A DNA stretch of 61,868 bases, taken from the NCBI GenBank assembly GCA_017613735.1, contig JAGADF010000014.1, positions 1-61,868 on the forward strand, in the 5' to 3' direction. This DNA comes from Clostridia bacterium. GTDB lineage: Bacteria; Bacillota; Clostridia; Oscillospirales; Acutalibacteraceae. A model generated the notes under the pieces. It was given only the letters and a program-made list of their open reading frames with translations, searched no databases and was not told where the DNA came from. Each line of letters opens with the position of its first letter. Position 1 is the first letter of the stretch. Positions 18,437 to 56,185 of the stretch are shown in pieces. The position numbers were made by a program, and so were the translations under genes.

Positions 18437-18444
18437 TCTGCAAT

Positions 18445-18605
18445 AAATAGAGGCGCGGTTGACAAAAGTAACACGGCTCACGGTACGGAAATACCGCCGT
18501 GCGAAAGGGGATACCGCCGAAGTTTGAACAGAATTTCCGTTCTGTTTTTGCTGGGCCGATGTGAAATACATATCGGACTGTCACGTAATGTGGAGCGCTA
18601 TTTAC
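18445..18605 (+). promoter_or_regulatory. Lysine riboswitch (L box) aptamer
   Basis: The element contains the L-box landmarks in order: AGAGGCGCG, AAAAGTAAC, CGAAAGGGGATACCGCCGAAG (read as GAAAGGGG then CCGAAG), CTGGGCC, GGACTGTCA and TGGAGCGCT. Helix P1 closes with AAATAG against CTATTT. Lysine riboswitches in Firmicutes repress lysine synthesis or uptake genes when lysine is abundant. Confidence 0.93.
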
Positions 18606-18623
18606 AGTATTGAGTTATTGTGT

Positions 18624-18656
18624 CAGGTTGCGCTTTGCTGCGCGACCTGTTTTTTA
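18624..18656 (+). terminator. Regulatory terminator of the lysine riboswitch
   Basis: CAGGTTGCGC and GCGCGACCTG form a stem followed by TTTTTTATT, between the aptamer and the transporter start. Lysine binding should favour this hairpin and stop transcription. Confidence 0.88.
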
Positions 18657-18679
18657 TTACCCGAAAAGGAGATATGAAA

Positions 18680-34546: not shown

Positions 34547-36244
34547 GTGGACAAATATAAGTTCGGCAATAAGTTAACTGAATACAGAACAGAAAAAGGT
34601 CTTACCCAAAGCGAACTGGGTGAGATTCTCGGTGTGTCCAACAAAGCTGTTTCCAAATGGGAAAACGGCTCGGCAATGCCCCGCCTCGATATGATGAGTA
34701 AAATTACGGATTTCTTCGGCGTGAGTATGGACGAGTTTCTTGATATACCGTCGGGAAAAGCAGGTACAAACGAAGAACTCGAGCAGAAATACCTTAAGTT
34801 ATATAATGAAAAAATGAAAAGACGTCATATAATCCGCGTCCTTTTGTTCTTTGTTCTTCCCGTGTTTCTCTTAACCGCAGTTTTTATTTATGTTTTCGGA
34901 CCGGTTCTGCTTGTGAGAATTACGTATGACAATATGTCGGAATACGCGAAAATGAAACCCGAAAAGTATGAAGATTATGATTTGACCTTTGATTACACCA
35001 ATTCTTTCGGAAAGGTCGGGAATGTTGCTTTTTCACTGCCTGACGGGACGGAATTATTCAGTGAGCTTTCAAATGTGGAAAAAAGCTATAAGAAAATATC
35101 GGAGAACGGTGAAATGCTTGCCGAGGACGGACCGTTCGACATTTATCATATGCTTTACAGCGGGAATGACGGCGGACTTGAGCATATTGATTATCTTCTT
35201 AATTTTGAGGAAGAATGGTTTACCGATAATTTTGACGGAAAGCATTACAGAATGTATGATTTAAAATGGCTCGAATATAACTATGACTGGAAACATAATA
35301 TAAAGCTCTGTGACTGGAAAAAGGCAAAAATGTCTTACAGAATTCTTTCTTTATGGAGCGTTGCGGCTCCGGTCAGCGACAGGGTTATAGAATACAACGG
35401 CGAAAATGCAAAGGGATTTATAATGGTATTGAGTGATAACGGCGTTACAACCTATATTGCCGACCTTTATAATGAAAACGGCGAAAGCATAGGAATTGTA
35501 TATAACGACGCTAACAAAAACGATTCGTCCGATTATAAAACCTTTTGTATGGTGCTTAATTCCGTCACATTTACGGGCGAGGAGGTCCTTGACGAAGAAA
35601 CCGAGAGAATGCAAAGTGAATATGAGACGGCGGAACGCGAACGTGAAGAAATGAATCGCCGCAAAGAAGAGCTGCCGTATGTAACGCCCAATCCCGACCT
35701 TGAAATTCTTACTGCAGACGAAATGAAAGTGTATTCGCTTAATGAGGATATGACCGAAGAAAACATTGTAAGTTTACTCGGCCAGCCGAAAGAGATTAAA
35801 GAGGAAGTACTTGAGAATATATGGGGTAAAAAAGTTTATGTTTATGACGGAGTAAATATTACGTTTCTGACAACTCTTTACGGTGAACCGCTTTATGACA
35901 AAATATATTCAGCCGTGTTTACCGAGAATATAACGGAGTTCCCAAGAGGTATAAAAATCGGTGACTCCATGGAAAGCGTTATTTCCAAATTTCCTCAGGA
36001 AAGGGATAAGGATTATCGTATTACGGGTGAGATTTACGGTGACGGAAACTATAAATTTACAAAAGGCTTTGCAAATGTAAAAGACTATTATGTAAACGGC
36101 GAATGTCAGGTCGGCGAATACGAGATGTATATCAGCTGCGGTTATTGGCCGACACTGTATTTGAGATTCGATAAGGATTTGAATGTAAGCTTAATAGCGA
36201 TTGTTTACCGAAGCAACGGTATTTCCACGGGCTTCATCGAATAA
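34547..36244 (+). CDS. Membrane-tethered Xre-type regulator with large C-terminal region
   Basis: This 565-residue protein starts at GTG 34547. Residues 8-62 are a Cro/CI helix-turn-helix (GLTQSELGEILGVSNKAVSKW). A charged linker leads to a single transmembrane helix (about 98-120), and residues ~125-565 are predicted outside the cell. This external part contains a long Glu/Arg helix near 355-390 (EYETAEREREEMNRRKEE) followed by a segment (about 400-500) that resembles SmpA/BamE-like small lipid-binding folds only faintly (VSLLGQPKEIKEE, RGIKIGDSMESVISKFP). The design suggests one-component sensing across the membrane. The ligand and targets are unknown. Confidence 0.75.
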   Translation: MDKYKFGNKLTEYRTEKGLTQSELGEILGVSNKAVSKWENGSAMPRLDMMSKITDFFGVSMDEFLDIPSGKAGTNEELEQKYLKLYNEKMKRRHIIRVLLFFVLPVFLLTAVFIYVFGPVLLVRITYDNMSEYAKMKPEKYEDYDLTFDYTNSFGKVGNVAFSLPDGTELFSELSNVEKSYKKISENGEMLAEDGPFDIYHMLYSGNDGGLEHIDYLLNFEEEWFTDNFDGKHYRMYDLKWLEYNYDWKHNIKLCDWKKAKMSYRILSLWSVAAPVSDRVIEYNGENAKGFIMVLSDNGVTTYIADLYNENGESIGIVYNDANKNDSSDYKTFCMVLNSVTFTGEEVLDEETERMQSEYETAEREREEMNRRKEELPYVTPNPDLEILTADEMKVYSLNEDMTEENIVSLLGQPKEIKEEVLENIWGKKVYVYDGVNITFLTTLYGEPLYDKIYSAVFTENITEFPRGIKIGDSMESVISKFPQERDKDYRITGEIYGDGNYKFTKGFANVKDYYVNGECQVGEYEMYISCGYWPTLYLRFDKDLNVSLIAIVYRSNGISTGFIE

Positions 36245-36266: not shown

Positions 36267-36308
36267 CGGGCTTTGTTGCGGCTTTTTTGCAACAAAGCCC
36301 GTTTTTTT
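36267..36308 (+). terminator. Strong terminator before the head-gene cassette
   Basis: CGGGCTTTGTTGC and GCAACAAAGCCCG form a perfect 13-bp stem followed by seven T residues. Confidence 0.92.
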
Positions 36309-36357
36309 ATCTATGGGTGAAAGCGGTGAAAACCACGAAAAGAAATCAGGAGGAAAA

Positions 36358-36873
36358 ATGAATAAGACATATATGAATTCAAACGGCGGTTCTTCGCAGG
36401 GTGAAAAGCTCACCTCAAAGGAAAAGGAGTTCTGCCGTATTTTTGCGGAAACGCGCGACAAAAGGCGCGCCGCGTTTGAGGCGGGCTTTAAGCTCATGCC
36501 GACAAAAAATGCGTTAAAGCTTCTCGAAAAGCAGAAGGTCAGGGATTACCTTGATTCTTTATTTGAAAGTCAGTCTGCTTTTTCGGGCGAAGCGGAGGCG
36601 GGCTTTCGCAGGCTCGCTTTCGGCTCGTCCGCCGACGCGGTAAAGCTGATTTTTTCGGAGAATATGACCGACGAGCAGATTGAGTCGCTTGACCTTTTTA
36701 ATGTTTCGGACATTAAAAGACCGAAGGGCGGCGGCATTGAAATAAAATTCTTTGACCGTCTTAAGGCGCTTGAAATGCTTGAAACTCTGTCCGAAAGCAA
36801 ACCCGACGGCGCTCTGCCTTTCTACAAGGCGCTTGAAAGAAGCGTGACCGACCTGGAAGAGGATGAAATTTAA
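36358..36873 (+). CDS. Phage terminase small subunit
   Basis: This 171-residue protein resembles Terminase_2-type small subunits. An N-terminal helix-turn-helix region (SKEKEFCRIFAETRDKRRAA, then KNALKLLEKQKVRDYL) recognises packaging sites, followed by an acidic helical C-terminus. The start was moved to ATG 36358 because CAGGAGG lies just upstream; an upstream extension of 15 codons is open. Its stop overlaps the large-subunit start (TAATG). It is the first gene of a seven- to eight-gene head cassette. Confidence 0.82.
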   Translation: MNKTYMNSNGGSSQGEKLTSKEKEFCRIFAETRDKRRAAFEAGFKLMPTKNALKLLEKQKVRDYLDSLFESQSAFSGEAEAGFRRLAFGSSADAVKLIFSENMTDEQIESLDLFNVSDIKRPKGGGIEIKFFDRLKALEMLETLSESKPDGALPFYKALERSVTDLEEDEI

Positions 36874-38129
36874 TGCCGAAAACAAGATTTGAATCCTTTT
36901 CAAAAAAGCAGCTCACGGCTCTTTCGTTCTGGTGCGACGGCAGTAAATTCAGCGACCGCGACGCGATTATCTGCGACGGCGCGGTAAGAAGCGGAAAAAC
37001 CGTCTGCCTTACGCTTTCATTTTTTTCGTGGGCATTTTACCGCTTCAACGATACTTCGTTTGCGCTCTGCGGCAAGACGGTCACTTCTCTTAAAAGAAAC
37101 GTGATTGTTCCGCTTCTGCCCGTGCTTGAGGAGCTTGGCTTTCGGTGCAGGGAGTACAAATCGAAGAATTATCTTGAAATAAAAAGGGGAAAGGTTAAAA
37201 ATCGGTTTTATCTCTTCGGTGGCAAGGATGAGGGTTCGGCCGCGCTGATTCAGGGTATGACTCTGGGCGGCGTGCTTTTCGACGAGGTGGCTCTTATGCC
37301 GCGCTCATTCGTTGAGCAGGCGCTTGCCCGTTGCTCGCTGGAGGGCGCAAAGTTCTTTTTTAACTGTAACCCCGAAAATCCGCAGCACTGGTTTTACAGA
37401 GAATGGATTAAGAAAACGAAGGAGAAAAACGCGCTTTATCTCCATTTTAAGATGGAGGACAATCCCTCGCTGTCGGGCGAAATAATTGCGCGTTACAAGT
37501 CGCTTTACAGCGGCACCTTTTACGAGCGTTTCGTCGAGGGTAAGTGGGTGGCGGCTCAGGGGCTCGTCTACCCGTTCTTTAATGAAAAGACGAATATCGG
37601 AACGCCCGACGGCGAATGCTCGCGCTATTTTGTTTCCTGCGACTACGGTACTGTGAATCCCGCTTCATTCGGTCTGTGGGGACAATACGGCGGAAAGTGG
37701 TACAGACTGAGCGAATACTATCACGATTCGCGCAGAGAGGGTTTTCAGAAAACCGATGAGGAATACTATTCGGATTTGGTTTCCCTTATTGACGGAAGAA
37801 AAGTCGAGGCGGTTATTGTCGACCCGTCGGCGGCGTCGTTTATCGAATGTATCAGACGCCATAAAAAATACACGGTGTTGCCGGCTAAAAACGACGTTGA
37901 CGACGGAATCCGCAAGGTTTCATCTCTTCTCAAGGAGGGCAGGCTGGTGTTTTCACCCGTATGTAAGGACTCCTTAAGAGAGTTTTCGCTTTACAGATGG
38001 GACAGCACGTATATCAAAGACAAGCCCGTCAAGGAGAATGACCACGCGATGGACGATATCCGCTATTTTGTGTCCACCGCATTGAATGAAAGCGAGGAAA
38101 GATTCTTTGCTTTATCGGTGGAAAGGTGA
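36873..38129 (+). CDS. Phage terminase large subunit
   Basis: This 418-residue DNA-packaging motor is of the PBSX/Terminase_3 type. The N-terminal ATPase shows Walker A GAVRSGKT and Walker B GVLFDEVAL. The C-terminal RNase H-like nuclease shows acidic residues in SCDYGTVNP, VIVDPSAASF and HAMDDIRYF. All catalytic positions look intact. Composition and codon use match the neighbouring host genes. Confidence 0.93.
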   Translation: MPKTRFESFSKKQLTALSFWCDGSKFSDRDAIICDGAVRSGKTVCLTLSFFSWAFYRFNDTSFALCGKTVTSLKRNVIVPLLPVLEELGFRCREYKSKNYLEIKRGKVKNRFYLFGGKDEGSAALIQGMTLGGVLFDEVALMPRSFVEQALARCSLEGAKFFFNCNPENPQHWFYREWIKKTKEKNALYLHFKMEDNPSLSGEIIARYKSLYSGTFYERFVEGKWVAAQGLVYPFFNEKTNIGTPDGECSRYFVSCDYGTVNPASFGLWGQYGGKWYRLSEYYHDSRREGFQKTDEEYYSDLVSLIDGRKVEAVIVDPSAASFIECIRRHKKYTVLPAKNDVDDGIRKVSSLLKEGRLVFSPVCKDSLREFSLYRWDSTYIKDKPVKENDHAMDDIRYFVSTALNESEERFFALSVER

Positions 38130-38166
38130 AAAAATTGCCCGACTGCCGAAAATGAAAGGAGTGTTT

Positions 38167-39321
38167 ATGAAAAATAACCTTTTTTCACGCCTTAAAAAGA
38201 ATAAGAGCTTTGTTGCGGCGCAGACGGGACCGTATATCAATAACCCGTTTTCGTTGATGGAAAATTTCTTTCCCTCGGCTGCCGAAGAGGTTGAGCTTTA
38301 TTCGGCTCTTAAAAACAGCGTTCCGATAATTTCGGCGGCTATAACGAAGCTTGTTCATCTTACGGGCGGCTTTAAAATGAAATGTTCAAAGGAGATTTAT
38401 CAGCCGGTTCTCGACGAATTTGTTTCCCGTATCGATGTTGGCTCTACGGGGTACGGACTCGACAGATTCATGGCGGTATTCTTCGAGTGCCTTTTGACCT
38501 ACGGAACGGCGGTAGGCGAAATGGTGCTGGACGAAAACGGTAAAGTAGTTCAACTTTACAATACGCCGATTAAGAATATAAAATTGCGCAGAAATCCCGC
38601 AAAACCAATAGAAGTTCAACTTTGCAGGTTTAACGGCATTGACACCGAACCTGTAAAGTACCCTGACTTTACAGTAATGTCAACTCTCAATCCCGAATCG
38701 GGTGAGATTTACGGCAAATCTCTTCTTAAAGGATTGCCGTTTGTGACATCCGTACTTATGAAAATTTATAATTCAATAGGTCAGAATTGGGTGCGCGCGG
38801 GCGCGCTGCGTTACGCGGTTACTTATAAGCCGCAGAACGATACTCTTGAAAGAGGCTTTGCCAAGGACAGGGCGTTACAGATAGCAAGCGAGTGGAGTAA
38901 CGCTATGAATTCATCGGGCACGAAGGACTTTATCGCAGTAGGCGACGTCGATATCAAGGTCATAGGCGCGGACAGCCAGATACTTGACAGCGAGGTGCCC
39001 GTAAGACAGATGCTCGAACAGATTGTTTCGAAGACGGGATTACCGCCTTTTATGCTCGGGCTTTCCTGGTCGTCGACCGAAAGAATGTCGGCTCAGCAGG
39101 CGGACGCGCTTACAAGCGAGCTTTGGGCGTACAGACGGATTTTAACCCCCGTTGCGGAGAAAATCTGCAATATGTATCTTGCTCTTCTCGGACTTGACGC
39201 GACCGCTTCAATCGAATGGGACGAAATCACCCTTCAGGATGAAACCGAGCAGGCGAGAGCGAAGCTTATGAACGCTCAGGCAAAGCAGATTGAAAATGAG
39301 TCGGGAGGTGAGGGCGATTAA
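38167..39321 (+). CDS. Phage portal protein
   Basis: This 384-residue protein of the HK97/SPP1 portal class forms the dodecameric ring through which DNA is packaged. Recognisable parts are YSALKNSVPIISAAITKLV in the wing, a central YGKSLLKGLPFVTSVLMKIYNSI stem-like region (longer than shown motifs need) and a C-terminal clip/crown. The start was placed at ATG 38167, preceded by AAAGGAG; the longer open frame overlaps the terminase without a ribosome binding site. Confidence 0.88.
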   Translation: MKNNLFSRLKKNKSFVAAQTGPYINNPFSLMENFFPSAAEEVELYSALKNSVPIISAAITKLVHLTGGFKMKCSKEIYQPVLDEFVSRIDVGSTGYGLDRFMAVFFECLLTYGTAVGEMVLDENGKVVQLYNTPIKNIKLRRNPAKPIEVQLCRFNGIDTEPVKYPDFTVMSTLNPESGEIYGKSLLKGLPFVTSVLMKIYNSIGQNWVRAGALRYAVTYKPQNDTLERGFAKDRALQIASEWSNAMNSSGTKDFIAVGDVDIKVIGADSQILDSEVPVRQMLEQIVSKTGLPPFMLGLSWSSTERMSAQQADALTSELWAYRRILTPVAEKICNMYLALLGLDATASIEWDEITLQDETEQARAKLMNAQAKQIENESGGEGD

Positions 39322-40288
39322 TAAATCGATAATTGCCAAAACAAAAAGCGTTAAAAAGGTAACTGACGCGGATATGGAGAAAATCAATACCTACGCCATT
39401 TCCGAACTGAAAAGCGCGGACGTTTTCGTTTTTTCGGTCGTGCTTTGCGATAACGAAATAGACCGCGACGGAGAAAGGTTTACGGTTGAATCGCTTAAAA
39501 CGCTTGAAAAGCTGTATGTGGGCAAAACCGCAATAATGAATCACAGTATGAAAACCGAGGACCAGAGCGCGCGCACCTTCAAGACCGAGCTTATAACCGA
39601 CGGCAGAAAGAATTCGCTCGGCGAGGATTATTACTATCTTAAGGCGTGGGCGTATATGGTCAGGACCGAAAAGAACGCCGACCTGATTAAGGAAATCGAG
39701 GCCGGAATTAAAAAGGAGACGAGCGTCGGGTGTTCGGTTGAGGAAATAAGGTGCTCGGTCTGCGGAGCGAACAGACGTAAAAAGCGCTGCGCTCATATAA
39801 AGGGCGAAAAATATGACGGCAGGCTTTGCTTTGACGAGCTTGTCAATCCTACCGACGCATATGAATGGTCATTTGTCGCTGTCCCCGCACAGAAAAATGC
39901 GGGCGTTACAAAGACTTTTTCGGAAAAGGAGGAAAAAGCTACGCAGAATATTTTTAAATCAATGGAAAGCAAAGAGGAAATCACGCTTACAAAGGGAGAA
40001 ATCGAAAAGATTCTTTCAGCCGTAAAGGAGCTTGAAGAAAAAGCGAAGGACGGCGAGGAATACAGAAAGGCGCTTGTTAAAAACGTCATTTCCCTTTCGG
40101 CAATATGCTTTCCCGAAATCGGCGCAGAGGGTATGGGCGATATTTGTAAGAGCCTTTCAACAGAGGGGCTCAGAACGCTTCGGAATGCGCTTGAAAAAAG
40201 AAAAACGTCGTCTCTTCCCATTGGCTGTCAGACGGGAGAAACGACCGATAATAAAGCGGATGAAAACAATTCATCCTTTGTTTTTTAA
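39296..40288 (+). CDS. Prohead protease-like protein with C-terminal scaffold-like region
   Basis: This is a protein of about 330 residues. Residues ~45-200 resemble HK97-type prohead proteases: DRDGERFTVESLKTL, a His in AIMNHSM and a Ser in ETSVGCSVEE as probable active-site pair. A cysteine-rich insertion (CSVCGANRRKKRCAHIKG) may bind zinc. Residues ~215-280 are a Glu/Lys-rich helix typical of a fused scaffold. The start is unclear: SD-like GGGAGGTGA (39302-39310) points to a codon near 39317, where only ATT is in frame, while ATG 39296 and GTG 39308 lie before or inside it. It overlaps the portal gene's end. Confidence 0.75.
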   Translation: MSREVRAINKSIIAKTKSVKKVTDADMEKINTYAISELKSADVFVFSVVLCDNEIDRDGERFTVESLKTLEKLYVGKTAIMNHSMKTEDQSARTFKTELITDGRKNSLGEDYYYLKAWAYMVRTEKNADLIKEIEAGIKKETSVGCSVEEIRCSVCGANRRKKRCAHIKGEKYDGRLCFDELVNPTDAYEWSFVAVPAQKNAGVTKTFSEKEEKATQNIFKSMESKEEITLTKGEIEKILSAVKELEEKAKDGEEYRKALVKNVISLSAICFPEIGAEGMGDICKSLSTEGLRTLRNALEKRKTSSLPIGCQTGETTDNKADENNSSFVF

Positions 40289-40300
40289 CAGGAGGTAAAT

Positions 40301-41305
40301 ATGGCAGATTACAAAAACATTACGCTCGATAAGGGCTTATATGTCGGCAAGGGCTTTTCTTATAACCTTGAACAGCTTGACCCGAGCGAAAACTACAAGG
40401 GCACATCCCTTGAAGGACTTGACGCCTTTGGACGTCAGCTTAAGAGATTCGACATTAAAATCAGCGGTAAGAACAGCGACGTTATTGATAAGTTCTTCTC
40501 TTCTTCTCAGACTGCCGCGCTCTTCCCCGAATTTGTTGTAAGAGCGGTTTCAAACGGCCTTGAAGGTTCCGAGGCTCTTTCGGCTATTTCCGCAGTTAAA
40601 ACAAAAATTGACGGTCTTGATTACAGGGGACTTACTTCCTCTATCTCCGATACGTCTACTCCTGATACAATCGTAGGCGAAGGCAGTCAGATTCCCGAGA
40701 TTAATATTTCACTGTCGAATAGTATTATAAGCCTCAGAAAGTACGGCAGAATGCTTGTAGCTTCGTATGAGGCGCTTCGTTTCCAGAAAATCGGAGTTTT
40801 TTCAATCGCTCTTAAGCAGATTGGCGAGTATATTGCCTATATGCAGCTCGGCGCTGCTCTTGGCGTTCTTGTGAACGGTAACGACGGTTACGGTACCTGC
40901 GAAAACATCGGCGTTAATAACGACCTTTCGTACACAGACCTTATAAACCTGTGGAACAGCATGGGTCAGCACAAAATGACGACTCTTATTATCAATCCGT
41001 CAACTTTGCCCAAGCTTCTTAATATGACGGAGTTCAGAGATGCGGCTGCGGGTCTTAATTTCCACGCTACGGGCAAGCTTATAACTCCCTTCGGCGCGCA
41101 GATTATCAGGTCGGACTATGTGCCCGCAAACTCTGTTGTAGCGCTTGACAGGAACTCCGCTCTTGAAATGGTTCAGTCGGGCGACGTTACGGTTGAAAGC
41201 GATAAGCTTATTGACCGTCAGCTTGAAAAGGTTGCGATTACAAGCACCTGCGGCTTTAACAGAATTGACGAAAGTGCGGTCAAGACCTTAACGTTCGTTT
41301 CATAA
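40301..41305 (+). CDS. Phage major capsid protein (HK97-fold)
   Basis: A 334-residue protein following the protease, as in HK97-type heads. It has a helical N-terminal delta-like part (residues 1-100), then VGEGSQIPEINISLS and RKYGRMLVASYEALRF, characteristic of the E-loop and spine helix region of capsid proteins. Near the end is IIRSDYVPANSVVALDRNSALEM. The perfect AGGAGGT site and strongly biased codons suggest good translation capacity. The frame is intact. Confidence 0.85.
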   Translation: MADYKNITLDKGLYVGKGFSYNLEQLDPSENYKGTSLEGLDAFGRQLKRFDIKISGKNSDVIDKFFSSSQTAALFPEFVVRAVSNGLEGSEALSAISAVKTKIDGLDYRGLTSSISDTSTPDTIVGEGSQIPEINISLSNSIISLRKYGRMLVASYEALRFQKIGVFSIALKQIGEYIAYMQLGAALGVLVNGNDGYGTCENIGVNNDLSYTDLINLWNSMGQHKMTTLIINPSTLPKLLNMTEFRDAAAGLNFHATGKLITPFGAQIIRSDYVPANSVVALDRNSALEMVQSGDVTVESDKLIDRQLEKVAITSTCGFNRIDESAVKTLTFVS

Positions 41306-41316
41306 GAGGTGAAAAA

Positions 41317-41706
41317 ATGATTGACACTTCTTTGGTTGAAGAGCGTTTCCTTCTGCTTTCCTCTTTAAGCGAGGCCGACGAAACGGTTGAAGCCCTGTGT
41401 CAGTCCGGCGTAAGCAAGGTTGAGCATATGCTTAAAAGCGACGCGGACCTTACCGACGTCAGGGTTATTGACGCCGCCGCGGGCGACGCGTTTTATCAGT
41501 GGATTCTTATTAAAAAATCGGCGGATACGGATAGTTTCAGGAGCTTTCGCGCAGGAGACATCACCGTTCAGAATGACGTGTCAGTCAGCCTTGAAGCCGC
41601 CGGAAAAATAAGGGATGAGGCGTTTAAGGCGATTTCGGATTTGCTTATTGACAGGGACTTTTATTTCGGCGAGGTGTTGATAAATGACGTTGGACCGACT
41701 CTTTGA
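41317..41706 (+). CDS. Probable head-tail connector protein
   Basis: A 129-residue, mostly helical acidic protein located directly after the capsid gene, where head-completion (gp6-type) connectors are encoded. It has no diagnostic motif visible by eye; the call rests on position, size and helical make-up. It has an AGAGGTG ribosome binding site and overlaps the next gene by 23 bases. Confidence 0.6.
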   Translation: MIDTSLVEERFLLLSSLSEADETVEALCQSGVSKVEHMLKSDADLTDVRVIDAAAGDAFYQWILIKKSADTDSFRSFRAGDITVQNDVSVSLEAAGKIRDEAFKAISDLLIDRDFYFGEVLINDVGPTL

Positions 41707-42031
41707 TAAATTCGGCAGAAGCGTCAGAGTCACCTCGGTCGACGAGAGCTGGCAGGGCGACCTGTACCGCGCTTTCATTCAGCCTCTGAGATATAAAAAT
41801 AAAATGTATCTTGAGGACAAAAGAGTGCCTCTGGGAATCGGCGATATGAGCTATTACCTTTATTTAGGGCCTGCTTCCTTTGACCTGACGACTGTTGACG
41901 AGGACGAGTATATGCTCAAATCAGGCAACGAAAAGTTCTTTATCACAAGGGCGGAAAAGCTTTATTTTTCCGACAGCGTCTGCTATATCTGGGCGGTTAT
42001 CAAACGCTTTAAGGAGGAAGAATTATGTTAG
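41684..42031 (+). CDS. Probable head-closure/minor structural protein
   Basis: A 115-residue beta-rich protein (KNKMYLEDKRVPLGIGD, then YYLYLGPASFDL) with the size and position of head-closure proteins of siphophages. It overlaps genes on both sides, showing a tightly coupled cassette. Identity is by context only. Confidence 0.55.
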   Translation: MTLDRLFDKFGRSVRVTSVDESWQGDLYRAFIQPLRYKNKMYLEDKRVPLGIGDMSYYLYLGPASFDLTTVDEDEYMLKSGNEKFFITRAEKLYFSDSVCYIWAVIKRFKEEELC

Positions 42032-42468
42032 TAACGGGTAATACGGTTTCCGCGATTGTAAACGCCGCCAATCAGCATATTAACGACATCGGCGGCAGAA
42101 CCGTTCTCGCTTTTCCGGACAAATACTTTTCGACTCCGTTAAAGCAGACGATGTATTCCTTAGGCATAAAGAAAACACTTGTCGGGCCGAGAATTGCGAC
42201 AACAAACTCAAACGGCACAATGTCGCTGACAAGAAACAGAAATGTTACGGTCACTATTGCGCTTAATGTCTACGCGCCTCATTCAATGGGCGGCGAGGCC
42301 TGTTCGGTCGGGTTTGACAAATTCATTGACTTTGTCGTAAGGACGCTGCAGATAAACATAATCGACGCGGGATGCTCGGAGGTCGAATATGACCAGTCGA
42401 TAGGAACGAATGTGCTTAAATGCTATTTCACTATTGAAAGAACGGTTTCGGAAACGACTCCCGCATAA
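42025..42468 (+). CDS. Probable tail-terminator/minor capsid-like protein, last gene of the cassette
   Basis: A 147-residue protein with a helical N-terminus and beta strands (RNRNVTVTIALNVYAP, CYFTIERTV). Its size and fold pattern fit tail-completion or tail-terminator proteins that join head and tail. It is followed at once by a terminator rather than by tail genes. It has an AAGGAGG site and a 7-bp overlap with the preceding gene. Confidence 0.55.
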   Translation: MLVTGNTVSAIVNAANQHINDIGGRTVLAFPDKYFSTPLKQTMYSLGIKKTLVGPRIATTNSNGTMSLTRNRNVTVTIALNVYAPHSMGGEACSVGFDKFIDFVVRTLQINIIDAGCSEVEYDQSIGTNVLKCYFTIERTVSETTPA

Positions 42469-42476
42469 ATAAAAAG

Positions 42477-42510
42477 GGCGGCGCGGTTTAACCGCGTCGC
42501 CTGATTTTTT
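42477..42510. terminator. Terminator ending the head cassette
   Basis: GGCGGCGCGGTT and ACCGCGTCGCC form a G+C-rich stem followed by TGATTTTTTTG. It also lies just beyond the convergent GGDEF/EAL gene. Confidence 0.8.
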
Positions 42511-49924: not shown

Positions 49925-49941
49925 ACTTTGGAGTGGGGAAA

Positions 49942-51066
49942 ATGAACGGATTATCGTTGTTTGCTAATGTCGGCATAGCCGAAACATATTTGTACAAAGA
50001 GGGTATAGACATTGTGGTGGCCAATGAGCTTCTTGAAGAGCGCGCCGCCTTTTATCAGCATCTTTATCCCGAATGCCACATGATTTGTGGTGATATCACA
50101 AAAGATGAAATCTTCAATGAGATAATTACCGAAGCAAAGCAGAAGAATGTTGAGTTCATTCTTGCTACTCCGCCATGCCAAGGGATGAGCATAGCTGGAT
50201 ATATGCTACCTGAGGATCCGAGAAACTATCTTATTACTTATGCCGTCGAGGCAATAAAAAAACTTGGACCAAAGTATGTTTTGCTTGAAAATGTTTTCAT
50301 GCAACTGCAGACGTATATCAAATATGAAGGCAAGAGCATCCTGATCCCTGATTTGATAGATGAGGCTCTCGGCACAGATTATTATATCGAAAAGAAAGTC
50401 GTTGATACAAAGTTCTACGGAGTTCCTCAACAACGCAAACGGGCTATTATGCTGCTTTCACGGAAAGATAATGGCATTCACTGGGAGTTCCCTGCTGAAG
50501 ATAAGCACATCATTACGTTAGAAGATGCCATTGGAGATCTGCCTTCTCTCGATCCTCTCATCAAGGAAAAGGAGTACCGATACATTTTCCCGGATTATGA
50601 GAAGAAACGGCTTAAAGGCCTTGAAGTTTCAAAATGGCACTTCCCCAGGGAACACGTTTGGAGAAATGTTGAAGTGATGATGCATACTCCAACGGGAAAA
50701 AGCGCAAGGCAAAACCCTGTTTATTTCCCAAAGAAAAAAGATGGAACTATGGTCGGTGGTGCGCCAAGAACATATATGCGTATGGAATGGGACAAAGCTG
50801 CTCCAACAATCACGAGTTACAACCACACTATTTCCTCATTCCAAAACGTTCATCCTGGGCGGTTAATTAAGGAAACAGGGCTGTATTCAGATCCAAGAGT
50901 GTTAACGATTTTTGAGATGATGAGGGTTATGAGTTTGCCGGATGATTGGGATATTCCCGAATGGGCTCCTCACCCCTTGATTCGCCAAGTTATTGGTGAG
51001 GGCGTTCCTCCCGAGGCTGTTCGGCGTTTCGTATCAGCATTAAATATTGGGAGGCAATCAAAATGA
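49942..51066 (+). CDS. C5-cytosine DNA methyltransferase, first of a tandem pair (M1.LlaJI-like)
   Basis: This 374-residue enzyme methylates the C5 position of cytosine using SAM. Motifs appear in the usual order: I (LSLFANVGIAETYL), IV with the catalytic Cys (ATPPCQGMSIAG), VI (LLENV), VIII (QQRKRAIML), and IX/X near GEGVPPEAV. The target domain lies between VIII and IX. ATG 49942 was chosen because the twin enzyme starts the same way (MNxLSLFANVG) and TGGAGTGGGG precedes it. Two different C5 methylases in a row are expected when the target site is asymmetric, one for each strand. Confidence 0.93.
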   Translation: MNGLSLFANVGIAETYLYKEGIDIVVANELLEERAAFYQHLYPECHMICGDITKDEIFNEIITEAKQKNVEFILATPPCQGMSIAGYMLPEDPRNYLITYAVEAIKKLGPKYVLLENVFMQLQTYIKYEGKSILIPDLIDEALGTDYYIEKKVVDTKFYGVPQQRKRAIMLLSRKDNGIHWEFPAEDKHIITLEDAIGDLPSLDPLIKEKEYRYIFPDYEKKRLKGLEVSKWHFPREHVWRNVEVMMHTPTGKSARQNPVYFPKKKDGTMVGGAPRTYMRMEWDKAAPTITSYNHTISSFQNVHPGRLIKETGLYSDPRVLTIFEMMRVMSLPDDWDIPEWAPHPLIRQVIGEGVPPEAVRRFVSALNIGRQSK

Positions 51067-52190
51067 ACGCACTATCATTATTTGCCAATGTCGGTGTCGC
51101 AGAGGCATATCTTTCGGATATTGGAATTAACGTTGTCGTTGCCAATGAACTCGAGGAAGATCGTGCTCGATTCTATCACCACCTGTACCCAACATGTAAT
51201 ATGATTTGCGGTGATATTACGGATAGTGTGGTTTATGACAGTATCATTACCGCATCTAAGGAGCAGCAAATCGAGATGATTCTGGCCACTCCTCCGTGCC
51301 AAGGCATGAGTATTGCGGGTCATAACAGTCCGTATGATGAACGCAACAGCCTGATTAAGTATGCTGTTGATGCGATTCTGGATTTATCTCCCAAATATGT
51401 CTTTATGGAGAATGTGCCTCAACAACTGGACACACCAATTTATTATCAAGACCAGGAAATGCTGATTCCTGCCTATCTTGAAAAGAGACTCGGAGATAAG
51501 TATAGATTTAATTCCGAGAAAATTACCAATGCGATGTATTATGGTGTGCCACAAATGCGTCGTCGTTCGGTTATCCTTCTCGTGCGAAAAGACATCGACT
51601 TTATATGGGAGTTTCCTGAACCTGAAGAAAAAGTAGTTACGTTATCCCAGGCTTTTGATGGAATTCCAGATTTGTGGCCGGAGATCCGCGAAAAAGGCTA
51701 CAGGGATAAGCTTCCCAAGAATTCCGAGGAAGCACTGTCATTTCATAAATGGCATCGACCCCCTTGTCATGTATGGAGAAACGTGGAGTGTATGCTTCAC
51801 ACGCCGGCCGGTAATACCGCCTTTGATAATCCGTTCTACTATCCTAAAAAGACAAACGGAGAAAAAGTTAAAGGTTATGACACAACATACCACAGGCTGT
51901 TTTGGGAAAAACCTGCGGCCACGATAACAAAATGGAATGGCATTATGGGATCTCAGAACAATGTTCATCCTGGAAAACTGTGGAAATACGATGAGAATGG
52001 AGATCCTTTATACACGAATCCAAGGGTGTTAACAATTTACGAATTACTGATCGTTTCTTCTCTCCCGACAGACTGGGATATCCCCGATTGGGCAAATGAT
52101 CAATTAATAAGGTTTGTTATTGGTGAGGGTGTCCCTCCGCTGATGGTTAAAAAAATAATAGAGCCGATTATGGCTCATGAGAGGAGTTAA
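51063..52190 (+). CDS. C5-cytosine DNA methyltransferase, second of a tandem pair (M2.LlaJI-like)
   Basis: This 375-residue paralogue of the preceding enzyme has the same motif order: LSLFANVGVAEAYL, ATPPCQGMSIAG with catalytic Cys, FMENV, QMRRRSVIL and GEGVPPLMV. Similarity is high in the catalytic motifs and lower in the target region, consistent with recognition of the complementary strand of one asymmetric site. Its ATG overlaps the stop of the first methylase (ATGA). Confidence 0.93.
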   Translation: MNALSLFANVGVAEAYLSDIGINVVVANELEEDRARFYHHLYPTCNMICGDITDSVVYDSIITASKEQQIEMILATPPCQGMSIAGHNSPYDERNSLIKYAVDAILDLSPKYVFMENVPQQLDTPIYYQDQEMLIPAYLEKRLGDKYRFNSEKITNAMYYGVPQMRRRSVILLVRKDIDFIWEFPEPEEKVVTLSQAFDGIPDLWPEIREKGYRDKLPKNSEEALSFHKWHRPPCHVWRNVECMLHTPAGNTAFDNPFYYPKKTNGEKVKGYDTTYHRLFWEKPAATITKWNGIMGSQNNVHPGKLWKYDENGDPLYTNPRVLTIYELLIVSSLPTDWDIPDWANDQLIRFVIGEGVPPLMVKKIIEPIMAHERS

Positions 52191-52192
52191 CT

Positions 52193-54883
52193 ATGGCAGG
52201 TAATATGGATAAAATTCAGTTGCCTACAAACTCAACTGACATTTCAACTTTAGTTCGTTATTTGAAAGGAATCAAAGCCTCCGAACCGCTAAACAATAAT
52301 ACGGCTCAGAGTGTATATCAAGCTGTAAAAGCCACGGGAAGGAAGCAAAAATCTTATACAGCAAAAGTTGCAGAGGCTGATGGAAAAATGCCGGCGCGTG
52401 ATACCCACACAACCGGCACGCTGGCAACATACGGCTTGATTCGCTATATTGACAACAATAAGCCTGCCAATTTTGTCGTTTCAGATTTAGGTTGCGAGTT
52501 AATATCCCTTTACGATGCTGAAGGCAAACCGTTGAAAAATGCTGACGGAGTTCAGCTCCATTCCAATGGTAAATATGTGGTAATGCTTCTGAGAGTTTTT
52601 TCTGCATGGCACGAAACAGGTAAAGGCAGAGATATACATCCGGGCAAAATTATGCTTCAGCTAATGAGTGATCCGGATCTTGACTATTATCTGACAGAAC
52701 ACGATGTAGCATATTTTACATCCAACCCGGACTTCAAGTCTGATAATCAGTACATCGAAATCAAGAACTCGATATTGGAATTTCGACAGAAATACGATGG
52801 GGTTTATGGTTTCACGAGTAAACCCTGCAAAGCAGAAATCTTCATGCCTACATTCGTTCGCAATTGGGGCCTATTTGAGAAAAAGGAAATCTATGAAATA
52901 GCTCCTGATGCTTCAAATCCAGGTCATTTCATTTTCACTCTGAAGAGCTCAAGTGCGACTTCTGATGATGAAATAGATGAAGCTGATGTGGAAGATTCGG
53001 ATTCTGACGGCGCTTCTGTGGGTGCCCAAGTAGGCGAAACACATCAAGTTGGCAGTGATCCGGAAGGACTCGGTAAATCCATTGATCTCGAAACGCTTTA
53101 TAAAAATGTGACTCATTATGTTCTGGCAAATGGAGCCGATGTTTATTGTGACATGGTCTTTAGACAGGATGGAGACTACGATTGGATCTATACCGCCAAC
53201 GATAAAACAACACCGGATTTCGCGGTTCTCTCACCAGAGTGGTTCCACGATAAGGCTCAAGAATTTGCAGCCGAAGATAGCGAAGCGGCCGCAATGTACA
53301 TCGATTTCAACAGCAGATTTGGTGTCGATGCTCTTTCCGCGTTGTCTGGGGAGGACCTTCTTAAAACACTGTTCCTGGGTGCAAGTTCCGATAACCTCTG
53401 CCACGAGCTTGAATATGTAGCCCGTAATACGGAGCTTTTCGGTAGCGTAAAAGGCGGAAATGCCTTCAAGTATCCGATGTTCTTCGACAAAGAAGCTTCG
53501 ATGTGGACCTCTGGTACGAGAGCGAATCCGAAGCAGCTGTCCCTTGATGAAGCAATAATCAAAGGTACCGCTGTTAGAGACGGATTAGTTAAGGGTGCAG
53601 AAATAATCAAGAACTCACTCCCAGTCGATTCAGTCGAGGACTATTTGACTCTCTACACAGAGCTATATGCTGCGATCCCGGATTTGGTCGACAGCCTTTG
53701 GGTTATCAAGTACTACCATATGCTATTCCCGGAACTCATCCCTGTTTTCTATAACAAGGACTGGCAGATTCGCGTTTTGACTGCGTTGAAGATTACACCG
53801 AACGATACTGCATATGGCCGCCTTGGTCAGATCGACGCATTTGTAAAAGAGTGCGATGTTACAAACGTGGCATTTGCCCGCGTGTTTCATAAGTATTGCC
53901 GCAACATTTCTGTAGATGAGCATGAAGACATCGGTCTGGACGAAGTGGTTGCACAGCGTGTTAAAGGCGGCACCAACATTATTCTATATGGTGTCCCTGG
54001 CGCCGGTAAATCGTGGACGATCAAGCATGAATACTGTGATGATGAGTCTCGTATGGAGCGCCTTGTTTTCCACCCGGATTATACCTACTCCGACTTTGTG
54101 GGTCAGATTCTTCCGAAGGTCGGGGATGATGGCAGTGTTAGCTACGAATTCTCTGCCGGCCCGTTTACAAAACTTGTTCGCAAGGCATACATTAACCCGG
54201 ATAAGATGTATTATCTCGTCATCGAAGAGGTCAACCGTGGCAATGCGCCGGCAATCTTCGGTGATGTGTTCCAACTGCTGGACAGAGACAAAGATGGTGC
54301 AAGTGAATACGAAATCACGAATGCCGATATCGCAAAAATCGTTTATTTGAACGATAGCCATAAGGTGTCCATTCCGTCCAACATGTGCATCCTATGCACA
54401 ATGAATACGAGTGACCAGAACGTATTTACTTTGGATACTGCATTCCAAAGAAGATGGAATATGCGACTGATTAAGAATAAGTTCCATGACGAAGAGGATG
54501 AGTTGCGCTTTGCAGGCACTATGATTCTCGACACGGACGTAACCTGGGAGAAGTTCTTTACTGAAATCAACAGTTTCATCCTCGGGAAAAACATCCGAAT
54601 GACATCTTCAGAAGACAAACGCCTTGGAACCCATTTTGTTTCGGAAGATGACCTTCGGTATGAAGAGGGCAATGAGCGGCAAAACAGCCGTTTTGCGGAA
54701 AAGGTGCTCAAGTATCTTTGGGATGATGCTTTCAAGTTTACTAAGGAAGACGTGTTCGACCTTGAAAAGGTAAAGAGCCTTGAGGACGTGATTGAACTGT
54801 TCGTGTCATCGACCGGCAATGCCAGATTCCTTGTGTTTAAGGAGAATATTTATAATTCGCTTGTTCCTAAGAGCAATGCATAA
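52193..54883 (+). CDS. McrB-like AAA+ GTPase subunit of a LlaJI-type restriction system (R1-like)
   Basis: This 896-residue motor protein drives DNA translocation for cleavage. The N-terminal 230 residues and an acidic low-complexity segment (about 255-295) have no motif I recognise and may contain DNA recognition. The AAA+ core (about 590-790) has Walker A YGVPGAGKSWTIKHE, Walker B with the McrB-typical VIEEVNRGNAPAIFGDVF and sensor CTMNTSDQN followed by an arginine pair QRRWNM. It starts two bases after the second methylase. In LlaJI the McrB-like R1 works with R2, the next gene here. Confidence 0.9.
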   Translation: MAGNMDKIQLPTNSTDISTLVRYLKGIKASEPLNNNTAQSVYQAVKATGRKQKSYTAKVAEADGKMPARDTHTTGTLATYGLIRYIDNNKPANFVVSDLGCELISLYDAEGKPLKNADGVQLHSNGKYVVMLLRVFSAWHETGKGRDIHPGKIMLQLMSDPDLDYYLTEHDVAYFTSNPDFKSDNQYIEIKNSILEFRQKYDGVYGFTSKPCKAEIFMPTFVRNWGLFEKKEIYEIAPDASNPGHFIFTLKSSSATSDDEIDEADVEDSDSDGASVGAQVGETHQVGSDPEGLGKSIDLETLYKNVTHYVLANGADVYCDMVFRQDGDYDWIYTANDKTTPDFAVLSPEWFHDKAQEFAAEDSEAAAMYIDFNSRFGVDALSALSGEDLLKTLFLGASSDNLCHELEYVARNTELFGSVKGGNAFKYPMFFDKEASMWTSGTRANPKQLSLDEAIIKGTAVRDGLVKGAEIIKNSLPVDSVEDYLTLYTELYAAIPDLVDSLWVIKYYHMLFPELIPVFYNKDWQIRVLTALKITPNDTAYGRLGQIDAFVKECDVTNVAFARVFHKYCRNISVDEHEDIGLDEVVAQRVKGGTNIILYGVPGAGKSWTIKHEYCDDESRMERLVFHPDYTYSDFVGQILPKVGDDGSVSYEFSAGPFTKLVRKAYINPDKMYYLVIEEVNRGNAPAIFGDVFQLLDRDKDGASEYEITNADIAKIVYLNDSHKVSIPSNMCILCTMNTSDQNVFTLDTAFQRRWNMRLIKNKFHDEEDELRFAGTMILDTDVTWEKFFTEINSFILGKNIRMTSSEDKRLGTHFVSEDDLRYEEGNERQNSRFAEKVLKYLWDDAFKFTKEDVFDLEKVKSLEDVIELFVSSTGNARFLVFKENIYNSLVPKSNA

Positions 54884-54901
54884 CGGATTGGTGGTGAGTT
54901 C

Positions 54902-56185
54902 ATGGCTATAGATCGTGAGCATTTTGTAATAAGAGAACACTGCCATATCAATCAAAACGGAGACGGTGATCGTTTTGTCGGTGTAAAGGCCGACAGCAAC
55001 AATGCGATGATCTATTTCCCTATGGGCTATGAATTGCCCGCGCAGGACGATGAACTTCGCCGTGACATTAAAAATCTGTTTCAAGTGCTGGCAACTTTTA
55101 CTGAGAAAACCGATCGCGTGCTTGAAATGGACAAGTTCACGGCACCGCAATCTGTGGACTTCCCGATCCAGGCCTACCTAAACGTTATCAACTATTATCT
55201 GGATCACAACGGCAGCTACTATACGGAAACAGAGACTGCGTATAAGGTCGATAAACGCGGGAAAACGCATTGGGGTCGAACAATAAAAACACAGACACCT
55301 ATGGTACAAGGAAAATCCTTGCTTTACTTGAACCAGGTGGTGCGTGTGAATACACCCGATCTGAATCGTCTCATTACTCGTATCCATCGTTATTGTGTTT
55401 ACGAGAGCTTTGAACGAATCGGCTGGTTATATACAACCAATTCACCGGAGCAGCCGGACATTACATTCGACAAGAATATGTTTTTGGCTACCCTCAATGC
55501 GAAGCTCGGCAGTACAAACAATGATAATGACAAGAAGCTCTTTCGTTCCATGATTGCTATGATCGAGTTCCGGGATAATCAGACCATAGACAAACAGTTT
55601 TATTTCGGCACCGACAAATTTGAGACAGTTTGGGAGAGACTCATCGATAAAGTCTTCGGTGTCCCGAATAAAGATGATTATTTCCCGCACGGCTTGTGGA
55701 CGGAACGATATGGCAAAAACAAAGGCAAACCCGCAAGTGCGCTTGAACCCGATACGATTATGATTTACGGCGGGAAATACTATGTTCTCGACGCAAAATA
55801 CTATCGATACGGAATTCTTCCGCAGTACGGTCCCGGATTGTTGCCGCAGTCATCCGATATCAATAAACAGATTACATATGGGCAATTCGTGAAGAATCAA
55901 CGGACCCCGGATGGCGCACAGGTTTTCAACGCATTTATCATGCCATATAACAGAGCCAATAATCAGTTTAAGATCAACGGCTTATTTGGAAATGTTGCGG
56001 AGGCTGTCGGTGATTGGGTAGACCACCCGGACAACCCGGAAATCTATGAACGAGTTCAAGGTATCGTGTTTGACACTCGGTATTTATTGAAGAACTATGA
56101 TGGCAATCACGATTCCGACAAGGAAGAGTTGATTCGAGAGATTGAAAAACCGTTTATAGCAGAAAACGCAGACGGAGAGGACTAA
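54902..56185 (+). CDS. LlaJI-family restriction endonuclease subunit (R2-like)
   Basis: This 427-residue protein resembles the LlaJI restriction endonuclease family, functionally the McrC-like partner of the preceding motor. The C-terminal half contains a PD-(D/E)XK pattern: Glu/Asp in ALEPDTIMIY and YYVLDAKYYRYG, with the D-x-K triplet in LDAKYY. A following region DINKQITYGQFV is family-typical. It is separated by 18 bases from the motor gene. Together with both methylases the four LlaJI components are all present and intact. Confidence 0.85.
   Translation: MAIDREHFVIREHCHINQNGDGDRFVGVKADSNNAMIYFPMGYELPAQDDELRRDIKNLFQVLATFTEKTDRVLEMDKFTAPQSVDFPIQAYLNVINYYLDHNGSYYTETETAYKVDKRGKTHWGRTIKTQTPMVQGKSLLYLNQVVRVNTPDLNRLITRIHRYCVYESFERIGWLYTTNSPEQPDITFDKNMFLATLNAKLGSTNNDNDKKLFRSMIAMIEFRDNQTIDKQFYFGTDKFETVWERLIDKVFGVPNKDDYFPHGLWTERYGKNKGKPASALEPDTIMIYGGKYYVLDAKYYRYGILPQYGPGLLPQSSDINKQITYGQFVKNQRTPDGAQVFNAFIMPYNRANNQFKINGLFGNVAEAVGDWVDHPDNPEIYERVQGIVFDTRYLLKNYDGNHDSDKEELIREIEKPFIAENADGED

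Follow-up and report, generated by a model that had tools for sequence, protein, structure and literature searches.

What use could a bacterium have for a phage head without a tail? The question is raised by a 61,868-nucleotide stretch of a Clostridia bacterium genome (contig JAGADF010000014.1; here called the window), in which positions 36358–42468 encode a small terminase (TerS), a large terminase (TerL), a portal, a protease, a capsid and three neck-size proteins, all intact and with host genes on either side. An earlier note, made from the sequence alone, had seen here a maintained phage-head cassette and offered three explanations: a domesticated capsid, a head module like that of a gene transfer agent (GTA) with its tail genes elsewhere, or a recently truncated prophage. 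All eight open frames were confirmed, at the following coordinates together with the signals around them.

36267..36301, + strand: terminator-like hairpin, 15 pairs, overlapping the promoter-like motif
36289..36324, + strand: promoter-like motif 5' of TerS (GCAAC box, 17 bases including a T-run, CTATGGGTGAAAGC), from a 24-column motif search
36358..36873, + strand: TerS, small terminase, N-terminal HTH-like part kept; PF03592 (E 1.6e-9), phrog_51
36873..38129, + strand: TerL, large terminase; PF03237 (E 1.6e-12), phrog_2 (6e-47)
38086..39321, + strand: portal; phrog_30703 (E 1e-118), 18-row alignment A3
39290..40288, + strand: probable head maturation protease/scaffold with a Cys-rich insertion; phrog_16951 (E 2e-96), weak phrog_18299 (4e-4)
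40301..41305, + strand: major capsid protein, HK97 type; PF25209 (2.7e-13), PF05065, phrog_3922 (3e-78)
41317..41706, + strand: h6, neck-size protein in adaptor position (role by position); conserved order in relatives
41684..42031, + strand: h7, neck-size protein in stopper position (role by position); conserved order in relatives
42025..42468, + strand: h8, neck-size protein in tail-terminator position (role by position); conserved order in relatives
42476..42502, + strand: terminator-like hairpin directly 3' of h8

Are these phage genes in working order? Their caudoviricete origin is indicated by TerL and the HK97-type capsid (Pfam and PHROGs). For TerS, the start at 36358 is preferred over the longest-frame start at 36313 because GGAGG precedes the ATG at 36358. 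The HTH-like part of TerS, which is presumably DNA-binding, is absent from none of the head-only rows described below, and the PF03592 match begins at position 1. In TerL, the residues of GAVRSGKT, the DE pair, CDYGTVNP, DPSA and DHAMDD are each 94–100% conserved over 35 head-only rows. The predicted ATPase and nuclease motifs are thus intact, as had been claimed. The portal frame overlaps TerL, and homology with the nearest relative starts near codon 20. For the protease, there is no credible Pfam match; phrog_16951 is a family of unknown function, and the weakly matched phrog_18299 is a head maturation protease family. An alignment of 31 homologues (A5, window included) gave no match against solved-structure profiles, and in it His83 and Ser143, which we take to be the catalytic residues, are invariant. 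An alternative ATG start for this gene at 39296 is possible. Since h6, h7 and h8 have no confident match in Pfam or PHROGs, their roles are assigned from size, position and conserved order. No gene for integration or replication was detected by profile within the cluster, as the earlier note had it, and none of the eight cassette proteins matched an HNH endonuclease.

The surroundings are those of an ordinary chromosome, again as proposed. Upstream lie glgB/glgC/glgD and downstream a gene for a long GGDEF-type protein (four named by reading), followed by rubrerythrin; in many species, glycogen or ABC-transporter genes adjoin the cassette. No integrase or primase was found by profile or reading among the adjoining genes, and the nearest integrase gene seen is ~23 kb away. 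The G+C content of the cassette (~0.47) is similar to that of most of the window, which agrees with the host-like composition noted earlier. Terminators had been proposed at both ends, and both hairpins exist; the first, however, overlaps the conserved promoter-like motif and is therefore not simply insulation. The 24-column part of this motif (T-run to GGTGAAAGG), to which the GCAAC box was appended by eye, is estimated to occur in ~90% of 133 upstream regions and is shared by the majority of loci within each main architecture. Its log-likelihood, which is inflated by the relatedness of the loci, is 781 (40 starts), versus 82–88 in three sets of simple letter shuffles with 15 starts each. Allowing ≤3 mismatches, the only match in the window's genome is the cassette itself. 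At the same threshold, 25 genomes yield 58 matches (at least one in 20 of the 25) versus 34 when the pattern is reversed as a control. Judged by position, four of these matches (G000, G033, G031 and G044) fall at the cassette. A few other matches are near-identical to one another and look like one homologous coding stretch.

Where, then, is the tail? When 17 profiles, made from relatives' head and tail genes, were run over all six frames of the complete window, they matched the eight head genes alone, so the description of a tail-free locus holds. The element's baseplate J and the tape-measure families PF10145 and PF20155 have no match in the window's genome (~91% complete), and the fibre domain has none in any of 39 genomes of the genus, the window's included. 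Thus, these searches do not bear out the suggestion of tail genes elsewhere in the genome. Strong baseplate J matches come from seven genomes, all of other genera, with six at the cassette and the seventh (G057) on another short contig; weaker matches come from eleven genomes, only two of them (G013 and G035) in the genus. Among the genus genomes searched for tape-measure families, including the window's, PF10145 occurs in 4/25 and PF20155 in 1/25, so most of them show no sign of a resident tail donor. One criterion for a GTA is a capsid with an associated tail structure; here, tail profiles gave nothing in the window, and those for baseplate J and fibre gave nothing in its genome.

Relatives of the cassette suggest how a tail could have been lost. 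Related loci form a series: contractile tails with a sheath, short tails without one, a neck protein fused to a fibre-like domain, and heads only. Two full relatives, L277 and L286, have a contractile tail with the sheath present, and the tail of the Bacillus subtilis element PBSX is contractile like theirs. Unlike PBSX, the loci of the window's clade lack tail genes. Among cultured relatives, Anaeromassilibacillus sp. An172 and Pseudoruminococcus massiliensis represent the tailed type. The h8 homologue is the protein fused to the fibre-like domain in sister lineages, and h8 stands alone in the window; the alignment of the fusion (A4) gave one weak match to solved-structure profiles, 6r5w (E 0.007, over a 32-residue stretch). 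In a tree of 129 rows, from which 72 of 201 loci were excluded as partial, short or duplicate, the window falls in a head-only clade that counts 26 loci and a further 6 interrupted by contig ends, with portals as little as 47% identical to its own. One further locus, L070, was classed as head-only automatically and wrongly: it carries one tube-like gene and another that may be hub-like, and is absent from the tree. The earlier note had argued that a tail beside the head genes in close relatives, with this locus a unique deletion, would speak against a maintained element. Relatives do have such a tail, but the loss is clade-wide rather than a unique deletion.

How long has the cassette been in this lineage? 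The portal occurs in 34/38 other genomes of the genus, 14/21 of the same family and 3/38 from other families of the order. In a sample of the order, it is found in 101/395 genomes, including 51/60 of the family as listed, always in single copy save for a second, weak match in G366. In a sample of the class, nine of 393 genomes have matches, all within the same order. The cassette and rpoB trees of 27 genomes have 15/24 splits in common, versus a mean of 0.26 and a maximum of 3 in 1000 shuffles (G053 was excluded because its cassette row is absent from that set). The Mantel r is 0.91 for 18 same-genus genomes and only 0.51 over all 27, with a Spearman coefficient of 0.81. Each tree conflicts with the other in nine splits, some of them with good support (99 for the differing placement of G006), which leaves room for some transfer. 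The portal is also absent from most sampled genomes of the order's other families, which requires either losses or a patchy origin. Judged from these trees and distributions, the cassette has been inherited with the host chromosome over long times, largely vertically. The genes are also kept by purifying selection: omega is 0.09–0.30 for all eight in the comparison of the window with L032, no finite value in 16 hand-picked close pairs exceeds 0.43, and all eight genes are present in 34/35 unique head-only loci. The signs of a decaying prophage, broken genes and dN/dS near 1, were not seen. The earlier view that the cassette is maintained is therefore upheld, and vertical inheritance and selection speak for both a domesticated capsid and a GTA-like head module. 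Taken together, the cassette is probably the head part left over from a prophage of the order that became domesticated and vertically inherited, a GTA-like element that has lost its tail and probably still packages host DNA.

What known systems does it resemble? The nearest is FpGTA of Faecalibacterium prausnitzii, whose host we take to belong to the same order as the window's. FpGTA, published in 2026, is likewise a chromosomal operon of gut Clostridia with TerS, TerL, portal, scaffold and capsid, near-ubiquitous in its genus and described as having no replication genes found (PMC12946183). Its particles have been observed, with ~40 nm capsids, ~8.5–9 kb of DNA and no identifiable tails; the window's element is known from its genes and is compared with FpGTA by description. 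Some FpGTA strains add a second operon, FpGTA II, encoding a baseplate, fibre, receptor-binding protein, holin and endolysin (PMC12946183), whereas in the window's genus the element was not found to include baseplate J or fibre. GTA particles are described as capsids with tails (PMC11841831). RcGTA-type elements (Rhodogtaviriformidae) likewise have caudoviricete-derived head genes and mostly vertical inheritance, but RcGTA has a 49 nm tail and a small terminase seemingly without a DNA-binding domain (PMC9662315, PMC11841831); in the window, tail genes are lacking and the HTH-like part is retained. Indeed, a small terminase without a detectable DNA-binding domain is a GTA criterion from which the window's TerS departs. 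For Bartonella henselae, particles with a short tail or none were reported on one occasion (PMC9662315), so a tail missing from images alone is not new. PBSX, another phage-like element of a Gram-positive host, packages host DNA (PMC7667829). In Lactococcus lactis, proPhi1 releases tailless heads (PMC8752148), so neither production nor release requires a tail; proPhi1 is, however, a prophage of single strains, whereas the window's element is an inherited head-only operon of a genus.

Other readings of the locus have to be weighed against the evidence. The recently truncated, decaying prophage of the earlier note is almost certainly wrong. Relatives outside the clade do keep tails beside the same head genes, but portal divergence within the head-only clade, gene completeness, low omega, congruence with rpoB and the glycogen or ABC-transporter neighbours in many species all argue against it. 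Thus, only part of the earlier interpretation survives, namely a domesticated or GTA-like capsid, without recent truncation and without support, from the baseplate J, fibre and tape-measure searches, for tail genes elsewhere in the window's genome. It is also unlikely that tail, fibre and lysis functions are encoded by a separate operon, unlinked to the cassette as FpGTA II is to FpGTA I and so divergent that the profiles miss it, which would make the particle an ordinary tailed or short-tailed GTA. FpGTA II is described as lying ~125 kb from FpGTA I (PMC12946183), and GTA accessory genes as often lying elsewhere (PMC11841831). FpGTA I itself occupies positions 2536737–2546346 of CP030777. Against this stand the failure to find baseplate J in the window's genome or the fibre domain in the genus, the position of six of the seven strong baseplate J matches at the cassette in other genera, and the lack of a second motif copy in the window's genome at ≤3 mismatches.

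Could the heads instead borrow their tails from other phages, like those of capsid-forming PICIs, and in this way deliver host or satellite DNA? The gene content is nearly that described for the heads and packaging of these helper-phage-dependent satellites: TerS, TerL, portal, protease, capsid and connectors, without a tail (PMC10690885), although the protease and connector roles in the window are partly positional. In addition, h8 is retained in tail-terminator position though no tail follows. Membership among capsid-forming PICIs was nevertheless rejected, given the absence of a neighbouring integrase or an HNH match and the single, largely vertically inherited copy. Tail-stealing more broadly seems rather unlikely, since the neighbours are host genes, tape-measure families are rare in the genus (although infecting phages could still donate tails) and the fusion lineages place the fibre-like domain straight on the neck protein. 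It is quite improbable, finally, that the capsid acts inside the cell without any transfer, by interfering with infecting phages or as a compartment holding DNA or protein. The clade-wide loss of the receptor-binding parts known from relatives, with the packaging parts under selection, would fit such a role, but a mere compartment would not need the conserved motor and nuclease residues of TerL.

How might a GTA-like element that has lost its tail work? For particles, cargo and delivery, we infer the following course. The conserved promoter-like element would switch the operon on under some condition, the capsid would assemble and be matured by the protease, and TerL would fill it with host chromosome by headful packaging. 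The filled capsid would then be closed by h6–h8, and the particle would exit by lysis or membrane release. Finally, having no tail of its own, it would deliver or shelter DNA tail-free. Of these steps, delivery is the least secure: a recipient may take up free or capsid-shielded DNA, or a very divergent adhesion or lysis operon may exist unlinked to the cassette. More tentatively, the genus may maintain a tailless DNA-packaging capsid by selection as the final stage of a contractile-tailed GTA taken apart step by step, in which the sheath was lost, the tail shortened, the fibre fused to the neck and then the fibre lost. The head alone would then be the functional unit, with DNA sheltered or handed over in the absence of any tail.

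What are the implications? Few GTAs are known outside the Alphaproteobacteria, and FpGTA is described as the first from the human gut microbiome (PMC12946183). The present locus puts a GTA-like element in about a quarter (101/395) of sampled genomes from one order of gut-associated Clostridia. It also carries a warning, as such loci get filed as phages: 148 IMG/VR contigs encode portal relatives, and in the one long “Bacteriophage sp.” record examined, typical bacterial genes surround the cassette. The related loci look like natural intermediates in the stripping-down of a phage. A literature search that covered few subscription journals, with bioRxiv outside its scope, found no description of a head-only domesticated capsid among known GTAs, FpGTA being the nearest.

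The window is an entire contig of 61,868 bases, and its parent genome measures 1.65 Mb and is about 91% complete. The cassette of eight phage-head genes (36358-42468, + strand) lies in it as follows.

Upstream of the cassette: glgB, glgC and glgD, named by reading, without a profile
36267-36301: terminator-like hairpin, upstream of the cassette
Between both hairpins, + strand: TerS, TerL, portal, protease, capsid, h6, h7 and h8, overlapping or closely spaced
42476-42502: terminator-like hairpin, downstream of the cassette
Downstream of the cassette: large GGDEF-type protein, named by reading, without a profile
Beyond the GGDEF-type protein: rubrerythrin

The TerS start at 36358 is correct as the earlier note placed it, and the roles of h6, h7 and h8, the neck-size proteins that close the cassette, are assigned by position. 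Pfam was run on 30 window proteins. A six-frame search of the whole window with 17 head and tail profiles matched only the eight head genes, which bears out the earlier statement that no tail genes lie beside them. The neighbors of the cassette are host genes. The gene directly upstream of the cassette (34547-36244) encodes a 565-aa Cro/CI-type HTH protein whose C-terminal part is long; among 40 loci, it occurs at the same place in the nearest species only, at 55% identity.

Other parts of the window have features of their own. A short tyrosine-integrase gene (12273-12824; PF00589, 183 aa), ~23 kb upstream of the cassette, is possibly a remnant of another element. A lysine riboswitch (18440-18608) stands immediately 5' of a Na+/H+ antiporter family gene (18620-20542), and the two adjoin tRNA-Trp and tRNA-Met genes. 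What looks like a complete restriction-modification system occupies 49933-56182, with adjacent genes for two C5-cytosine methylases, an AAA-domain protein and an LlaJI-type restriction endonuclease. From 58000 to the contig end at 61868, G+C rises to 0.54-0.58, both strands carry long frames, and Rfam gives no match; the stretch may have been acquired recently or may be an artefact of binning or assembly.

How do related loci differ from the window? The 17 head and tail protein profiles were run over 201 loci, some genomes being counted twice under two names. Rule-based classes comprise 46 full loci, with tail genes following the heads; 39 with an in-frame fusion of h8 to a fibre-like domain, and L056, with such a domain at the same place; 44 head-only loci; 12 with capsid before protease; and 59 that are partial or truncated at contig ends. 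L070, counted among the 44, is misfiled as head-only. In the family's full loci, e.g., L063, the heads are followed by tube-like, LysM, hub, spike-like, gp25-like, baseplate J, gpI-like and fibre-like genes. Of these, three have matches above their Pfam cut-offs (baseplate J, E 5e-48; LysM; Mu gp48), the hub and gp25-like proteins have PHROG tail matches, and the remaining genes are named by position, including the tube-like part, which matches a PHROG without an assigned function. Neither a sheath nor a long tape measure would fit into such loci. L277 and L286, from other families of the order, carry a tail sheath gene before the tube-like gene (PF04984 and PF17482, whose cut-offs are passed in L277 but not in L286; both loci match phrog_279), and L284, L288 and L232 end after the tube-like gene and a possible hub-like gene, which has no family match in L232 and L288. 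Given this series of sheath loci and short tails, the original element probably had a contractile tail and was later reduced in different ways, a direction that we infer, the tree being unrooted.

Two head proteins vary among the relatives. A protein of ~112-115 aa lies between protease and capsid in many of them (L063, L038, L044, L040 and others) and is absent from the window; that of L063 matches the virion structural family phrog_4588. Of 123 TerS rows, ten have no N-terminal HTH-like region, a resemblance to published GTA terminases; eight of the ten are tailed versions (L067, L173, L174, L181, L188, L228, L234 and L238).

The earlier note had offered a recently truncated prophage as one explanation of the missing tail. 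An unrooted FastTree tree, built from 129 unique loci, places the window inside a clade of 32 rows (26 head-only and 6 cut short; support 96), so the head-only state is common to 26 loci and not unique to the window, which speaks against recent truncation. Portal identity to the window within the clade is 47-57%, and 85% for L032, the locus of the nearest species (genome G033). In the 26 head-only loci, the next frame of at least 80 codons starts 46-713 bases past the last head gene; it is glgB in L042, L043, L046, L047, L048 and L054 and an MFS transporter in L034, the others being judged by reading only, with doubtful frames in a few G+C-rich loci. Nine further head-only rows are placed elsewhere in the tree. 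Because the three architectures require at least 11 changes on it, tails were probably lost more than once.

A second proposal was a head module whose tail genes lie elsewhere in the genome. The element's baseplate J, the fibre-like domain and the tape-measure families PF10145 and PF20155 were sought, and none was found in the window genome. Among 38 genus genomes, G013 and G035 alone match baseplate J, weakly and perhaps through prophages; PF10145 occurs in 4 and PF20155 in 1 of 25 genus genomes. The fibre-like domain is found in 0 of 39 genus genomes; its matches are in ten genomes from the rest of the family and in G093, which belongs to another family and has no portal. A far divergent tail, beyond the reach of these searches, may lie elsewhere in the genome. 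In G093, five fibre-like matches sit within ~28 kb on both strands (C2:1176443-1204793), and may represent an array of fibres that is repeated or invertible.

The portal is present in 52 of 98 genomes searched: the window genome, 34 of 38 others in the genus, 14 of 21 from other genera of the family and 3 of 38 from other families of the order. Four genus genomes are without it (G016, G018, G030 and G036); three are only 68-85% complete, and G030 is 96% complete. In an order sample (392 of 395 genomes with completeness of 90% or more and contamination of 5% or less), 101 of 395 have the portal, including 51 of the 60 listed for the family; one, G366, has a weak second match. In a class sample it occurs in 9 of 393 genomes, all nine from the same order. 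At least 552 stretches of the genome_contigs collection encode a portal relative. The 80 best carry the labels Oscillospiraceae, Ruminococcaceae, Ruminococcus, Clostridia, Clostridiales or Eubacteriales, and include Pseudoruminococcus massiliensis, Anaeromassilibacillus sp. An172 and Candidatus Fimenecus excrementavium, whose cassette is nearly the same as that of G003, a genome of the window's genus. Judged by such labels, the genus is probably Fimenecus and the order probably Oscillospirales.

Phage records rarely contain the portal (6 of 50,697): five scaffolds from human faeces, all without annotation, and one Microcystis phage (28% identity). The longest scaffold, MT835508.1 (L272; 'Bacteriophage sp.' from human faeces in GenBank), has a head-only cassette and is most likely bacterial chromosome, because an RnfC-type protein, an ABC transporter pair, an MCRA protein and a fucosidase surround the cassette. 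TerL matches 1325 phage records, as expected of a common phage protein, with none above 65% identity among the matches listed. In IMG/VR, 148 of 198 candidate stretches encode a portal relative, and most of the 80 contigs listed are short.

Is the cassette under its own control? Across 133 unique regions upstream of TerS, with every main architecture represented, a motif of 24 columns, which spans from a T-run to CTATgGGTGAAAGG, is estimated in about 90% (log-likelihood 781 vs 82-88 for three shuffled sets); L036, L040 and L045 are among the loci scoring at background. By eye, many loci have a GCAAC- or GGACA-like box ~17 bases before CTAT, which is promoter spacing, and this box varies by lineage (GTATAA, TTGAAA). 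The motif overlaps the upstream hairpin in the window. Allowing up to 3 mismatches, the window genome has a single match to it and 25 genomes have 58, vs 34 for a control. The motif looks like a dedicated promoter or leader.

By its description, the closest reported system is the Faecalibacterium gene transfer agent (FpGTA). As reported in PMC12946183, FpGTA has a chromosomal operon of TerS, TerL, portal, scaffold and capsid; its capsids are about 40 nm and hold 8.5-9 kb of host DNA, its tails are not identifiable, and some strains have a second operon of baseplate, fibre and lysis genes. According to the same paper, Ruminococcus callidus, Onthomonas and others also show packaging of a GTA-like kind. 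Known GTAs, as described in PMC11841831, have a tail and a small terminase in which no DNA-binding domain is detectable, whereas the window element has no tail and its TerS retains an N-terminal HTH-like part. For these two reasons it is classed as GTA-like rather than as a proven GTA. Capsid-forming PICIs have much the same head genes but, as described in PMC10690885, are phage satellites, whereas the window locus has no sign of mobility.

Inheritance and selection bear on whether the cassette is maintained or decaying. A search of 30 chosen genomes for rpoB found it in 29, in 28 of them above the cut-off, and 27 of these 28 were compared with a joined TerL-portal-protease-capsid alignment. 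The two trees have 15 of 24 inner splits in common (label shuffles average 0.26, with a maximum of 3 in 1000), and nine splits in each are absent from the other, some of them well supported, e.g., the placement of G006. Mantel correlation is 0.91 for 18 genus genomes and 0.51 (Spearman 0.81) for all 27, with 0 of 2000 permutations as high in either case. The dN/dS check proposed in the earlier note gave omega well under 1 for all eight genes against L032, from 0.09 (TerL) to 0.30 (h6), at dS of 0.79-2.14, a range whose larger values are near saturation. Flanking genes give omega of 0.02-0.12 in seven cases, and 34547-36244 is saturated; fifteen more close pairs, hand-picked, give the same picture, with no finite omega above 0.43. 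Among 35 unique head-only loci, the TerL residues of GAVRSGKT, the DE pair, CDYGTVNP, DPSA and DHAMDD are each 94-100% conserved, and all eight genes are found in 34. As it had looked in the earlier note, the cassette is a maintained machine rather than a wreck.
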